A stretch of 37,277 nt of DNA from a virus. The notes under the pieces were generated by a model that saw only the letters and a program-made list of their open reading frames with translations, searched no databases and had not been told where the DNA came from. Positions 16,828 through 29,489 of this stretch are shown here, piece after piece. Each line of letters opens with the position of its first letter. Position 1 is the stretch's first letter. The translations under genes were made by a program, and so were the position numbers. Location of the stretch: positions 1 to 37,277 of IMG/VR virus record IMGVR_UViG_3300025732_000118, one strand, 5' to 3'.

Positions 16828-18047
16828 TATGCGCTTTCCGCTTCGTCGCTAGGGCGACCACCAATGTCAGGATTTACTGCAGACCCAGCGATGTTGGCAG
16901 GAACTCGAATCGCATCTAAACCTTCCATCGGCTCCTTACCAAGCTTTACTCGCGCTTCGTTCGGAGTTAAAATTCCACCGTTTACAAGCGTCGAGTAGTA
17001 TCTTGCTTGATCGCTCAACTCTGGCTGCAGTGCTGGAATATTTGTGACATCCTCAGTTAAATTAAATCCGAAGAATCTTTCAAAAGCAAACATATACTTA
17101 CGCAAAATCGGCATTACCGTCTCAAGATAGTAAAGCCGATGATTTGGGCGAATGTTTGCATTATTACCAGAGTCAAGCAGCAACGGAGGCACACCAATTG
17201 ATTTTAGAATAATATTTTCAAGAGCAACTACAGACGACTGAAAATCCATCTCTTTGAAGTTGATATTACTGATAGTATCAATTTCAAGACCGCCATCTAA
17301 AATAATTGGTCTACGTCCACCGCCATCTGGGCGGTAACGAGTTTGCCAAGCTTGTAACATACGCTCTTTTACTTTATCGCTTAACGTGCTGGGACTTTTA
17401 ATGATAAGTCCTGGCACTGCTCCATTGTCGAAGAAGTTATCTTGAAATCTTCGCATCTTGGAAAGGAGCTGCATAGTGCGATAAGCGGGTCGCAGCCGAG
17501 AAACTCCACGATAAATTGAGTAGAACGAATTCTCCTTAATATGAACGATTTCCCACGGCTTAAAGTCGAGCAGACCATCATAGACATATCCTGCAATATA
17601 GTTTTTCTTATCTGGTATAATTTCAACGAGATTTGCAGGCAAATGATATAGATACAAACCGTCAAAGTAAACAAATATGTTTCCGTCAATTACGTAGTCA
17701 ACGAAAAGATTTCTTCGAAAACTATTGATATCCTGATAAGGATTTGGCTGTAAATTTAACAAACTGTAAACTTGCTTTTGCCGAAACACTGGAACAATAG
17801 ATCCATTTTCTGTTGCAGGTCTTGCTCCAGGAATAATACCCGGCAGTTTATTGCCAACAGCAATTGGAATCTCAGCAATGTCATCTACGAGCATGTTTAC
17901 CGCTCGATTGACAACTTCCAAATTTTCATACTGTACGCGATAGTTATTTACAATTTCCCGCGATTCAATAAGCGACCCTTCAGACAGAGCTATACTCGGC
18001 TGAGCGGGGTTTTCTTTGGTTGTAGTCCAGAAATTATACCATGCCAT
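16827..18047 (-). CDS. Portal protein (HK97 family)
   Basis: The 406-residue protein forms the dodecameric portal through which DNA is packaged and ejected. Recognisable portal features are the N-terminal EVVNRAVNMLVDDIAEIPI helix, DINSFRRNLFVDYVIDGNIFVY, the FRDNFF-like segment RRFQDNFFDNGAVPG, the LPA/NANIRPNHRLYYLETV part, and the C-terminal LVNGGILTPNEARVKLGKEP. The length is normal for HK97-type portals. The gene starts inside the last 14 bases of the HNH gene, and its stop overlaps the next start by one base. The operon order HNH-portal-capsid is typical. Confidence 0.92.
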   Translation of the reverse strand: MAWYNFWTTTKENPAQPSIALSEGSLIESREIVNNYRVQYENLEVVNRAVNMLVDDIAEIPIAVGNKLPGIIPGARPATENGSIVPVFRQKQVYSLLNLQPNPYQDINSFRRNLFVDYVIDGNIFVYFDGLYLYHLPANLVEIIPDKKNYIAGYVYDGLLDFKPWEIVHIKENSFYSIYRGVSRLRPAYRTMQLLSKMRRFQDNFFDNGAVPGLIIKSPSTLSDKVKERMLQAWQTRYRPDGGGRRPIILDGGLEIDTISNINFKEMDFQSSVVALENIILKSIGVPPLLLDSGNNANIRPNHRLYYLETVMPILRKYMFAFERFFGFNLTEDVTNIPALQPELSDQARYYSTLVNGGILTPNEARVKLGKEPMEGLDAIRVPANIAGSAVNPDIGGRPSDEAESA

Positions 18048-22310: not shown

Positions 22311-22435
22311 TGGACGCATGGTTTTGGGTTCAAGCTTTGGGGCTTTGGATATTATTGCTTTGTATTTATGCAATACTGGAGGACGCCTGGAATACTCGAA
22401 AAACTATTATTAAACGCTTTAAAAAATATTTTTAA
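22310..22435 (+). CDS. Small membrane protein (41 aa)
   Basis: ATG at 22310 overlaps the previous stop codon by one base. The product has one strong transmembrane helix (WFWVQALGLWILLLCIYAIL) followed by a basic tail (RKTIIKRFKKYF), a topology with the tail in the cytoplasm. Tight coupling supports it as a gene. Function unknown. Confidence 0.6.
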   Translation: MDAWFWVQALGLWILLLCIYAILEDAWNTRKTIIKRFKKYF

Positions 22436-22447
22436 AATGGTAGCAGC

Positions 22448-22521
22448 AAAAAAGCCAGCTAAATCAATGACTTAGCTGGCGGTGCACCGCCCCGTAAGTC
22501 ATTGATTTTATTGGCTTTTTT
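22448..22521. repeat. Large imperfect hairpin with 37-nt arms (bidirectional terminator or repeat element)
   Basis: Bases 22448-22484 pair with 22485-22521 over 37 positions, interrupted only by two 3-base mismatch bubbles. The outer ends are A6/T6, so RNA from either strand would form a terminator-like stem followed by U-rich sequence. The inner part GGCGGTGCACCGCC is a perfect palindrome. A 26-nt stretch of the right arm (22488-22513) recurs exactly, inverted, at 25089-25114 in another hairpin. The interval 22436-22777 holds no gene apart from this and the palindrome at 22534. Confidence 0.85.
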
Positions 22522-22533
22522 GAAAGGGCGGTA

Positions 22534-22554
22534 ATTGTCAATTAAATTGACAAT
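22534..22554. repeat. 21-nt palindrome (ATTGTCAATT-A-AATTGACAAT)
   Basis: The two 10-base arms are exact complements around one central base. Such a site is a typical operator shape. It also contains a TTGACA, but no matching -10 was found at 16-18 bases. It lies between the large hairpin and the GC-rich gene at 22778. Confidence 0.55.
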
Positions 22555-22703
22555 TTGCGCCGAAAACGCGGACGCGGATTTCCCATTATAGAATACCGCG
22601 CGCGGGAATGCTTGTCAATACCTGGACGAAAATATTTTTGGCATGAAATATGCATCGACAAGCGCCCGCACGCACTAACAAGCTCACTCGTGAAATTAAC
22701 AAG

Positions 22704-24962: not shown

Positions 24963-24990
24963 AAAAAGCCGGGGTTTTCCCGGCTTTTTT
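24963..24990. terminator. Strong bidirectional terminator
   Basis: AAAAAGCCGGG pairs with CCCGGCTTTTT around a GTTTT loop, with a T-run on the right and A-run on the left. It insulates the coding block on its left from the repeat-rich non-coding region on its right. Confidence 0.9.
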
Positions 24991-25030
24991 ATAATATTAT
25001 TTTGCAATGTTATAACGTAACGTGGACGAG

Positions 25031-25080
25031 CTTGTTGCAGCGTGCGCTGGCTTGTTGCAGCGTGCGCTGGCTTGTTACAG
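25031..25080. repeat. 2.5 tandem copies of a 20-bp repeat
   Basis: The 20-base unit CTTGTTGCAGCGTGCGCTGG occurs at 25031-25050 and 25051-25070 without change, then a partial copy CTTGTTACAG. No interspersed spacers exist, so it is not CRISPR. Confidence 0.9.
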
Positions 25081-25088
25081 AAAAACTT

Positions 25089-25138
25089 CAATAAAATCAA
25101 TGACTTACGGGGCGATGCATCGCCCGGTAAGCTATTGA
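25089..25138. repeat. Hairpin sharing a 26-nt arm with the hairpin at 22.45 kb
   Basis: GGGCGATGCATCGCCC (25110-25125) is a perfect palindrome, extended outwards by imperfect pairing to about 25097 and 25138. Bases 25089-25114 are identical to the minus strand of 22488-22513. It lacks the terminal U-run of its relative. Confidence 0.85.
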
Positions 25139-25238
25139 ATTGCAAGAACTTTTTTTTGGATGCTCGGGCGGGGTTTGTCAAGTTTTTGCACAATTTGCCG
25201 CCGACCCCGCTGCAGGTTGCTTGACTGTCAATCTGCTT

Positions 25239-25259
25239 GCAGGACCGCCTCGGTCCTGC
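25239..25259. repeat. 9-bp perfect hairpin
   Basis: GCAGGACCG and CGGTCCTGC pair perfectly around CCT. No U-run follows, so it is not an obvious terminator. It sits directly before the 43-bp tandem repeat. Confidence 0.7.
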
Positions 25260-25343
25260 GCCAAAGTGCGAAATCAATGTCAAGTGCTATTTTTACGTGT
25301 GCGCCAAAGTGCGAAATCAATGTCAAGTGCTATTTTTACGTGT
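25258..25343. repeat. Perfect 43-bp tandem duplication
   Basis: Bases 25258-25300 and 25301-25343 are identical, beginning GCGCCAAAGTGCGAAATC and ending TTTTTACGTGT. Degenerate pieces recur near 25425 (GCGCCAAAGTGCAAACTC) and 25526 (GTGTCAAGTACTAATTTTAC), so the unit was copied more than once and decayed. Confidence 0.92.
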
Positions 25344-25726
25344 CTAAGTGCAAAATTTACCGATCGGGAAATTTTAATTCAAATTTGTGCAAAATTTGTC
25401 GAAATTTACCGATCGGGAAAGTTTGCGCCAAAGTGCAAACTCAATGCAAGTAATAAATTCGCCGCGCCAGGCCTCGCGCGGGGTTTGAAGTGCGCTTATT
25501 TAAATTATACCGCAATTGAGTGCGGGTGTCAAGTACTAATTTTACGCAAATTAAGCGCGAACCCCGCCCAAATTTTTTCCGGCCCCCGGAGCGGGGTTTG
25601 TAAATTTTGTGCAATTGGGTGGGAATTTTTGCAAAATTTGTCGAAATTAAAAAAAAGCAGTTGACATGGCTTGCTCGGCCCCCGGAAATTTTTTAAGTAT
25701 TTTTTCAACCATTCTAAATTTTATAT

Positions 25727-25756
25727 TTGACAACGCAACGGTATCCATAGTATAAT
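25727..25756 (+). promoter_or_regulatory. Rightward sigma70-type promoter
   Basis: TTGACA (25727-25732) and TATAAT (25751-25756) with an 18-base spacer. It ends the repeat region and would start the tRNA-containing operon; the first ATG is 31 bases downstream behind AAGGAG. Confidence 0.85.
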
Positions 25757-25786
25757 GGTTCCATAAAGTGGTAAGGAGCAAATATT

Positions 25787-26125: not shown

Positions 26126-26210
26126 GCGGAAGTGGTGAAATTGGTAGACACGCAGGATTTAGGTTTCTGTGCTGCAAAGCGTGTGGGTTCGAGTCCCACC
26201 TTCCGCACCA
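26126..26210 (+). tRNA. tRNA-Leu (anticodon UAG)
   Basis: The 85-nt gene has a 7-bp acceptor stem GCGGAAG/CTTCCGC, a D arm with GGTAGAC, anticodon loop TTTAGGT (anticodon TAG), a long variable arm typical of tRNA-Leu, the T arm GTGGGTTCGAGTCCCAC, and an encoded CCA end. It closely parallels E. coli tRNA-Leu(UAG). It sits within the transcript of the 25727 promoter. It would read CUA and other CUN codons, which the AT-rich phage genes use. Confidence 0.96.
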
Positions 26211-26729: not shown

Positions 26730-26950
26730 TTCCCAAACAAAATTTAAAAGTTGGAGCATATTATACTGGGCATTGTCGAAACTCTGATATTGCAAGATGG
26801 ACAGGGGATCGATTTTTGTATTGGCGATACAAATTTGGGCTTAAATTTTTAGAAGAAATTTATCACCCAGATGACGATCACTTTTATGATGTATTTGAGC
26901 CTTATTTTGAAACTGTCGAGGTAGATAAAGAAATTCCACTGGGAGTATAG
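26720..26950 (+). CDS. Hypothetical protein (76 aa) ending inside tRNA-Arg
   Basis: ATG at 26720 with GAGAGA upstream; a GTG at 26705 is possible but lacks a better site. The product (VIPKQNLKVGAYYTGHCRNSDIARWTGDRFLYWRYKFG...) resembles small phage proteins that keep the pattern L..G.YY.G.CRN...A.W.G..F.YWR.KFG. Its last 3 codons and stop (GGA GTA TAG) are the first 10 bases of the tRNA-Arg acceptor stem. Function unknown. Confidence 0.78.
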   Translation: MAVIPKQNLKVGAYYTGHCRNSDIARWTGDRFLYWRYKFGLKFLEEIYHPDDDHFYDVFEPYFETVEVDKEIPLGV

Positions 26951-27015
26951 CTCAACGGATAGAGCATCCGCCTTCTAAGCGGGCGATGAGGGTTCGATTC
27001 CTTCTACTCCTACCA
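26941..27015 (+). tRNA. tRNA-Arg (anticodon UCU)
   Basis: The 75-nt gene has acceptor stem GGGAGTA/TACTCCT, D arm CTCAACGGATAGAG, anticodon loop CTTCTAA (anticodon TCT), T arm with GGTTCGATTCC, and an encoded CCA. It reads AGA/AGG codons, rare in many proteobacteria but used in AT-rich phage genes. Its 5' end overlaps the upstream gene by 10 bases. Confidence 0.95.
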
Positions 27016-27864: not shown

Positions 27865-28109
27865 ATAAAATTCGACAAAAGTGGCTAGAGCTTCAATCAT
27901 GGGAAGATCGATACGATTGTGTCGTATTCTCTACGATTGATATTGACTCTGTTCGAAAGGACAGAACATTTTCTGGTGAGTATACTGACTCTCAAATTCT
28001 GAATGCATTGCAAGATGCTATGCAGTGTTTTGAAGATGAGTTGTATGAACTTGAAGCTAAAGTTACTCAGCTCACGATTGACACACTTTTGAATAGTAGG
28101 AACAAGTAA
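27861..28109 (+). CDS. Acidic helical protein (82 aa)
   Basis: ATG at 27861 overlaps the previous stop. The product (MNKIRQKWLELQSWEDRYDC..., ALQDAMQCFEDELYELEAKV) is helical and acidic with heptad-like spacing near its C-terminus. No family was recognised. It overlaps the next start by one base (TAATG), in a run of three coupled genes before the ncRNA region. Confidence 0.62.
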   Translation: MNKIRQKWLELQSWEDRYDCVVFSTIDIDSVRKDRTFSGEYTDSQILNALQDAMQCFEDELYELEAKVTQLTIDTLLNSRNK

Positions 28110-28279
28110 TGAACTTTTCGAGCATTATGAAAAAACTAGGGATGCCGGAGCTTCGGCAAGAGGCAACCCCGCTTAATGCTCGTTGGTTCTTGCGTAATGA
28201 AGCAATCAAGCACAGAAATCATCCGTTATATATGCAGGCCATGAAAGTCGCGCAGGAAGTCGCAGGAGGTGAAAAATAG
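28109..28279 (+). CDS. Small basic protein (56 aa)
   Basis: ATG at 28109 overlaps the previous stop by one base. The product (MNFSSIMKKLGMPELRQEAT..., then ARWFLRNEAIKHRNHPLYMQ) is basic and helical. It resembles nothing I can name, though its pattern of short amphipathic helices would fit a nucleic-acid or membrane-surface binder. Its end reaches the promoter of the ncRNA candidate within 4 bases. Confidence 0.6.
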   Translation: MNFSSIMKKLGMPELRQEATPLNARWFLRNEAIKHRNHPLYMQAMKVAQEVAGGEK

Positions 28280-28282
28280 TTG

Positions 28283-28311
28283 TTGACTTTCATGGTCAAA
28301 TGCCTCATAAT
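28283..28311 (+). promoter_or_regulatory. Promoter of the large ncRNA candidate
   Basis: TTGACT (28283-28288) and CATAAT (28306-28311) are 17 bases apart. The predicted start is near 28318. No start codon with a ribosome site follows for over 500 bases. Confidence 0.75.
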
Positions 28312-28317
28312 ATCTTT

Positions 28318-28831
28318 CTAGAGTGATGAAAGCGAGCGGCGAAGTCGCCAAGTTTGTTCTTATCACTACTAGCGGTGAAACGATAATCACCCGACACTAA
28401 CAACGCGACAGATGTGAGTCGGAAAAACATCGGTACTTGCCGATACAAAGCGAGACTGTGTAAACTGCGTTAGTGTTTATACATATGCGAGGACGCGTAG
28501 GCAACGTGGTAAAAGGTTTAATGCCATTAACCTAAATTTGCAAGGTCAAGCAACCCCGCAAGCGGCAAATTAATAAATGAAGTCGCTAAATAAAAGCAAA
28601 ATTTACCTGAGACTGGTAAGTATTGCGTAAGACTAATAAAAGCAGGGAGTTCAACCCCTTATCCAATACTTTATGACCGAAGAACTGGACTGTCTTACGA
28701 AGTTAGGCATTCTTAGCAAAAATGCAAAGGCGAAGAGATCTAATAAATCTCCGATTAAGAGCGAGAGTGGGGCTACTTAATCATCCAAACCCTAAGCGGG
28801 GTCTGTAACAGGACCTTTCTTGGGGTTTTTT
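28318..28831 (+). ncRNA. Candidate large structured phage RNA (about 510 nt)
   Basis: Between its own promoter and terminator lies a stretch without any credible gene but full of complementary arms. Examples are AGTGAT/ATCACT (28322/28362), GGTGA/TCACC (28374/28387), ACACTAAC/GTTAGTGT (28394/28469), ATCGG/CCGAT (28429/28440), AATTTGC/GCAAATT (28535/28565), AAGTATTG/CAATACTT (28618/28664), CGTAAGAC/GTCTTACG (28626/28692), GAGAT/ATCTC (28735/28747) and GATTAA/TTAATC (28753/28777). The helices at 28618 and 28626 cross each other, which is a pseudoknot. Not tmRNA, RNase P or a group I intron by motif inspection. Size, complexity and nearness to phage tRNA genes recall the GOLLD and ROOL classes, but I see no sequence proof of membership. 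Confidence 0.7.
28787..28831 (+). terminator. Intrinsic terminator of the ncRNA candidate
   Basis: AAACCC (28787-28792) pairs with GGGTTT (28823-28828). An inner stem GGTC/GACC (28800/28812) lies between, and a T6 run follows. It ends the structured region 36 bases before the next gene. Confidence 0.78.
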
Positions 28832-28866
28832 ATTGGCTGAAAAATAAGCCTACAGCGGGGTCTATA

Positions 28867-29148
28867 GTGAATATAATAAAATTTCCTTCTTCTCACAATC
28901 TTTATAAAAGTTATGTAGCTCGATTAAATGAATATAACGAAACTATCGCCGAGTTACTGGAAAAAACGGAAGAAATGAATGAAACACTCAGTTTGCTAAT
29001 GCACGACTATTTGAGCGTATTGAGCAGCATGATGAGCGAGTTGAGCGAAGAGGATGTAAGAAAATTTTTAAAAGAAGAAGGGTCGAACCACTCATTAAGA
29101 CTAGTGGCGACTCCGCTATCCTTTCAATTATCAATGGAGTTCGAATGA
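28867..29148 (+). CDS. Acidic coiled-coil type protein (93 aa)
   Basis: The frame starts with GTG at 28867; no ATG gives an equally long product, and the ribosome site is weak. The product (NIIKFPSSHNLYKSYVARLN...) is mostly helical and acidic, with EYNETIAELLEKTEEMNETL looking like a coiled coil. The opening 'II.FP' is shared with the minus-strand gene at 30335. It overlaps the next gene by ATGA. Function unknown. Confidence 0.62.
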   Translation: MNIIKFPSSHNLYKSYVARLNEYNETIAELLEKTEEMNETLSLLMHDYLSVLSSMMSELSEEDVRKFLKEEGSNHSLRLVATPLSFQLSMEFE

Positions 29149-29489
29149 GCAATTATACAGCCGAAGAAACGGCAAAAATCATAAATACGTATCGAGTCGC
29201 AACAAATAAAAAATTAGCTATAGCCGAGCTGAGCGAAACACTCGTTCGAAGTGAAAAAAGCATTATCGGTAAGCTAGCACGTGAAGGTGTGTATGAAAAA
29301 AATCGTTATTTAAATAAGCGTGGAGAGGTGCCAGAAACGAAAAAAGAAATCATAGCTCGACTCGCGAATCTATGTAATTTAAACCCCGCTAGAATACAGG
29401 GTCTGGAAAAATCGCCCAAAAATGAGTTAAAACTGCTAGAACAAGCCCTTACAGACGCCCTAAATCCCGTAGAAATTACCCAAAATTAA
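29145..29489 (+). CDS. HTH-like regulatory protein, paralogue 3
   Basis: The 114-residue product (MSNYTAEETAKIINTYRVAT...) contains LSETLVRSEKSIIGKLAREG followed by VYEKNRYLNKRGEVPETKKE. It is plainly related to the proteins at 27179 and 22778, keeping the KSII.KL.REGVY core and the basic N-K-(R/A)-G-E-(V/P)-P element. The C-terminal LANLCNLNPARIQGLEKSPK and NELKLLEQAL match the 'GLEKAsK..L..L' half of the others. It is coupled to the preceding acidic gene by ATGA. Probably a nucleic-acid-binding regulator; target unknown. Confidence 0.76.
   Translation: MSNYTAEETAKIINTYRVATNKKLAIAELSETLVRSEKSIIGKLAREGVYEKNRYLNKRGEVPETKKEIIARLANLCNLNPARIQGLEKSPKNELKLLEQALTDALNPVEITQN

Follow-up and report, generated by a model that had tools for sequence, protein, structure and literature searches.

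A structured untranslated RNA ahead of a candidate regulator operon in a T5-like phage and two relatives

Genes and signals at the locus

The window analysed here is the whole of a 37 kb IMG/VR virus record (IMGVR_UViG_3300025732_000118; 37,277 nucleotides), in which the RNA tract under study lies at 28283-28831. The large terminase encoded in the record shares about 47% identity with its counterparts in T5-like phages, and by this similarity the phage itself appears to be T5-like. On the plus strand, the tract is preceded by a gene for a 56-residue protein (28109-28279) and followed by the 93-residue IKFP gene (28867-29148), whose stop is overlapped by a gene for a 114-residue protein (29145-29489). 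The latter matches a D5-like transcriptional regulator in PHROGs weakly (E = 0.028) and is thus a candidate regulator of that kind. Genes for tRNA-Arg (26941-27015) and tRNA-Leu (26126-26210) lie 1.3 and 2.1 kb upstream of the RNA with other genes between, at the distances given in the original prediction, which was made from the sequence alone.

The tract opens with a sigma-70-type promoter (28283-28311, plus strand), in which TTGACT (28283-28288) and CATAAT (28306-28311) are separated by a spacer of 17, and closes with an intrinsic terminator (28787-28834, plus strand), the arms of which (28787-28803 and 28812-28828) are followed by six T residues; both had been proposed and both are present. 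The proposal that about 510 nucleotides here hold no credible gene is borne out by ORF lengths and coding scores. We found no credible gene on either strand of 28280-28866, the longest ORFs starting with ATG, GTG or TTG having 35 residues on the plus strand and 54 on the minus strand, and the coding scores of ORFs within the tract are near null, two of the few short ones scoring near or above the 95% null. No promoter is recognisable between the terminator and the IKFP gene of the window. The untranslated structured RNA described below, assigned by its fold and its homologues, would span 514 nucleotides (28318-28831, plus strand), with a probable 5′ end at about 28318. A 13-nucleotide direct repeat (AGCGGGGTCTGTA and AGCGGGGTCTATA, at 28795-28807 and 28854-28866) has one copy in a terminator arm and the other directly before the GTG start of IKFP, both being complementary to ACCCCGC at 28553-28559.

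Using Rfam 15, cmscan of 28150-28950 up to an E-value of 10 gave no match to GOLLD, ROOL or any other relevant family, leaving the suggested comparison with these two classes unsupported, and scans of the two related loci described below gave no relevant match either. Neither Rfam nor ARAGORN matched tmRNA, RNase P or group I/II introns, in agreement with the earlier statement that no hallmark of these could be recognised.

Relatives and conserved gene order

Scans of IMG/VR with the neighbouring proteins yielded two independent homologous loci, one in IMGVR_UViG_3300042465_005632 (L002/L003) and one from two records of about 94 kb, identical over 12 kb (L005 and L006). The three phages share one order: 56-residue gene, promoter, non-coding RNA, terminator, IKFP gene and gene for the 114-residue (D5-like) protein. 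The promoters of L002 (TTGACT..GATAAT) and of L005 (TTGACA..TATAAT) match the window's in position, past the stop codon of the 56-residue gene, and the terminators (5666-5703 in L002; 6461-6498 in L005) are non-homologous to that of the window, but also equally placed. The RNAs of L002 (5272-5702, 431 nucleotides) and L005 (6210-6502, 293 nucleotides) fold with z-scores of -3.8 and -7.7 against shuffles. They have diverged much further than the neighbouring proteins (64-75% identical): the 56-residue proteins are 73-75% identical among the three phages (the window's being 73% identical to that of L002 and 75% to that of L005), and the 114-residue proteins 64-72%. Run against L005, a nucleotide profile of the window and L002 recovers nothing of the tract but its promoter and terminator ends, at E-values (0.035 and 0.009) that are marginal. 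The window and L002 have the blocks CAACCCCGCAAGCGGCAAAT, GCGAGGACG, AAATTTG and TAAATAAAA in common; length and 3′ half vary among the homologues, and the 5′ half is reorganised in one of them. We also looked for a reading frame conserved through the region, and no peptide is shared by the homologues beyond a block of identical DNA.

When the RNAs of the window, L002 and L005 were compared by blastn with sequenced phages, no homologue was recognisable, the matches of L005 being to its terminator or short and due to chance; the search for homologues that had been suggested thus failed among sequenced phages and succeeded in IMG/VR through the neighbouring proteins. Further IMG/VR searches, using exact blocks, neighbour proteins and degenerate patterns for the core and the promoter, returned only L002/L003 and L005/L006, and GTDB genome contigs searched via the 56-residue gene held no RNA homologue. 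An occurrence of GCGAGGACG in another locus, L076, lies inside a gene and is attributed to chance.

Fold strength and compensatory change

The minimum free energy of the window RNA is -155.4 kcal/mol, compared to -123.3 +/- 6.7 kcal/mol for shuffles (z -4.8). The fold is strong, yet not unique within its own genome, as the first plus-strand piece of the RNA ranks 10th of 140 when the window is scanned in 260-nucleotide pieces. The strongest signals in that scan are at 22361-22620 (z -9.4, minus strand), a piece containing long inverted repeats around 22455-22520, and at 17161-17420 (z -7.4, plus strand).

The exact stems counted in the original prediction do exist, but their number is similar to that in dinucleotide shuffles at every length, with 107 of at least 5 bp compared to 100 +/- 9, seven of at least 7 bp compared to 6.3, and three of 8 bp compared to 1.75. 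Its pseudoknot fares similarly: the two 8-bp helices on the plus strand (28618-28625/28664-28671 and 28626-28633/28692-28699, spanning 28618-28699) are exact and cross, but a crossing pair of this length is present in 22% of dinucleotide shuffles, and the region has no counterpart in the relatives, falling in an alignment gap in the L002 homologue. Since both are equally frequent in shuffled sequence, neither the stem count nor the pseudoknot carries weight. What stands above chance is the overall fold, together with the promoter, place, terminator and three-helix core that are conserved in the relatives.

This core domain (28549-28653, plus strand), which contains CAACCCCGCAAGCGGCAAAT identical in L002, consists of a bulged closing helix, C1 (28552-28559 with 28643-28653, the alternative partner being 28796-28802), and two hairpins, C2 (28561-28566/28582-28587) and C3 (28603-28607/28615-28619), with an A-rich linker between them. 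C2 reads AGCGGC/GUCGCU in the window and L002 and AGUAGC/GCUACU in L005, and in C1 and C3 both arms are altered between homologues with pairing retained. A covariance model, R1, derived solely from the core of L002 (5462-5580; C1, C2 and C3), scores 30.6 bits at the syntenic place in L005 (E = 9e-6 in 12 kb), compared to 14.3 bits for the same model stripped of its base pairs. Across other phage loci totalling 590 kb, no non-self match outscored the L005 site, the next reaching 15 bits, and an additional 497 kb gave the L005 contig again and nothing else (about 1.1 Mb overall). On the window, R1 finds 28549-28652 at 18.7 bits, its best match in the 37 kb. Vibrio phage phi 3 gave an R1 match of 18.8 bits that lies antisense inside a CDS and is noise. 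A search of genomes with R1 missed even the L005 locus already known, and the negatives of that search carry no meaning.

Upstream of the core is a second domain (28457-28533, plus strand) with the conserved GCGAGGACG (28487-28495) and three helices assigned by eye: HA (28457-28465/28475-28483), HB (28494-28498/28504-28508) and HC (28514-28518/28529-28533). Between the window and L002 their arms are altered yet still pair, with three double changes in HA, two in HB and several in HC. Shuffling segments between anchors gave p-values of 0.17/0.18 (segment 1) and 0.03/0.04 (segment 2), and the upstream domain is thus less well supported than the core. The RNA begins with a 5′-terminal hairpin (28318-28372, plus strand; in both MFE and centroid structures), as do those of L002 and L005, with arms different from the window's. 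The 5′ hairpin contains a second copy of the arms of a core hairpin, AGCGGC/GUCGC (28332-28351 and 28558-28589; direct repeats D5 and D6), an arrangement suggestive of hairpin duplication.

RNAalifold applied to MAFFT alignments gave a weak signal, owing to the fact that the alignment sets covarying arms out of register. Uncompensated change in the paired arms, named in the original prediction as what would speak against it, is not the pattern found: double compensatory changes occur in C1, C2, C3, HA, HB and HC. For three independent sequences, with helices partly chosen by eye, the case that base pairs are kept by compensatory change appears good but not final. Because all three folds beat shuffles, base pairs raise the R1 score as they do, and double compensatory changes are present, we consider the structured phage RNA to be real, without an Rfam family or a match in sequenced phages. 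Of what had been predicted, an RNA with its own promoter and terminator and outside Rfam therefore stands, now with two homologues showing compensation, while its stem and pseudoknot evidence and its likeness to GOLLD and ROOL do not. Read from the sequences, the RNA-coding architecture, its conserved place and its conserved core fold are evident.

Other elements around the RNA

A second conserved structured element lies between convergent genes (window 29916 to about 29480, minus strand; L005 7050-7640, minus strand). Its promoter, TTGACTT-17-TATAAT, is followed by a long irregular hairpin of 125 nucleotides (about 29850-29724 in the window), whose closing stem GUGUUCGGG/CCCGAACAC corresponds to GUGCUAGGG/CCCUAGCAC in L005, with two double compensatory pairs, and then by conserved blocks, with ACGGTTTGTA-like repeats in L005. 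It folds with z-scores of -5.0 and -4.8, has no match in Rfam, and is a candidate for an RNA that is 6S-like in outline, or for an origin or primer region.

The heptamer ACCCCGC/GCGGGGT occurs 21 times in the window, about 15-fold more often than the 1.4 copies expected from base composition, at places that include 25168-25597, 28166, 28553, 28796, 28855 and 29383; several GCGGGGT copies fall in a repeat-rich non-coding tract at 24990-25770. It also recurs in L002 and L005, within genes, terminators and non-coding tracts, and GCGGGGT clusters lie upstream of the RNA in L003 (9259-9750) and L005 (2577-3211).

Possible functions of the RNA

At the sequence level the arrangement is that of a leader: operon promoter, untranslated tract, intrinsic terminator and first gene. 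A more distant relative, L010, has a like promoter (TTGACA-GATAAT) 54 nucleotides before the IKFP start, with neither RNA nor terminator between the two, so the RNA fills the leader position of the IKFP operon. The IKFP start codon lies about 9-17 nucleotides past the terminator T-run in L005 and L002, too close for a second promoter to fit between, and about 33 nucleotides past it in the window. Our preferred reading, held tentatively and with slightly less than even confidence, is that the RNA is a structured untranslated leader terminating ahead of the IKFP/D5-like operon. The host sigma-70 polymerase would start at 28283-28311 and make a folded, untranslated RNA of about 510 nucleotides, halting mostly at the terminator just before the operon, which would be expressed through read-through; the RNA would thereby set the dose, and perhaps the timing, of the downstream proteins, and once released, capped by its hairpin, it may also act alone. 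We infer transcription, the efficiency of termination, control by read-through and any activity in trans.

Variation in length (293-514 nucleotides) and in the 3′ half counts against a leader, being unusual for a ligand-binding attenuator. Moreover, no conserved antiterminator was found in the three RNAs: upstream pairing with the terminator arms exceeds that in shuffles only in L005 (0/200 and 2/200 shuffles as good), while for the 5′ arm 11.5% (window) and 60.5% (L002) of shuffles do as well. Because such pairing is clear only in L005, a role in trans for the released RNA is nearly as likely as a role as leader. It could be a free-standing regulator of host or phage mRNAs, a protein sponge or a counter-defence decoy, with read-through incidental, a possibility we treat as doubtful but substantial: the strong terminator in each of the three, the 5′-terminal hairpin cap, the long folded body and a size beyond the need of a simple attenuator point this way, but the sequence is poorly conserved outside the core and the RNA invariably sits at the head of this one operon, as its leader would. 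That it represents a new trans-acting phage RNA family, for example one sequestering a host protein of defence or RNA metabolism and produced abundantly from the promoter it carries, with the operon tuned by read-through, seems unlikely. The tract might instead be the remains of a coding region, or a spacer without function, and its fold fortuitous; this would fit the rapid divergence and the two short ORFs with raised coding scores, but is improbable given the compensatory changes, the conserved promoter and terminator, the lack of a shared peptide and z-scores of -3.8 to -7.7. Still less probable is a translated leader peptide controlling the terminator; the ORF at 28326-28400 (MKASGEVAKFVLITTSGETIITRH) has its ATG 8 nucleotides past the inferred start and a 25-residue ORF is similarly placed in L005, but L002 has no corresponding ORF, the peptides are unrelated, and no antiterminator stands out from shuffles in the window or L002.

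Structured RNAs of lytic phages have been little explored, and this one has no Rfam relative and a compensated core. It lies between a promoter and a candidate D5-like regulator operon, where, given a cultured host and phage, roles as leader and in trans could be separable by simple deletions.

Comparison with known RNAs

GOLLD and ROOL are phage RNAs, often found near tRNA islands, and many GOLLD RNAs exceed 800 nucleotides (PMC12286853). Like them, the window RNA is phage-encoded, long, folded and non-coding, and some of the present RNAs have tRNAs nearby, 1.3-2.1 kb off in the window and about 1.2 kb upstream in L002. In contrast to them, the present RNAs match no Rfam model to an E-value of 10, measure only 293-514 nucleotides, sit in an operon-leader position and share no conserved pseudoknot, the one proposed being at chance level; the 293-nucleotide RNA of L005 has no tRNA in its 12 kb. 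Membership of, or kinship with, these large ornate RNAs that form multimers is the most improbable of the readings considered. As the L010 promoter abuts IKFP without an RNA and in two of the three phages IKFP begins 9-17 nucleotides past the terminator, this is probably not a free-standing gene of the GOLLD or ROOL type.

The mgtCBR and rplJL leaders are transcription-attenuating leaders of bacterial operons (PMC3641672, PMC4538822). They resemble the present RNA in having a promoter, a long untranslated structured leader and an intrinsic terminator immediately ahead of the first gene, and differ from it in that no conserved antiterminator or leader peptide was detected here. The put elements of HK022, of about 65-70 nucleotides, suppress termination. 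They too are promoter-proximal phage RNA structures able to affect downstream termination, but are far shorter than the present RNAs (293-514 nucleotides). Within the broad kind of structured phage leader or non-coding RNAs, we file the present RNA as new and unclassified.
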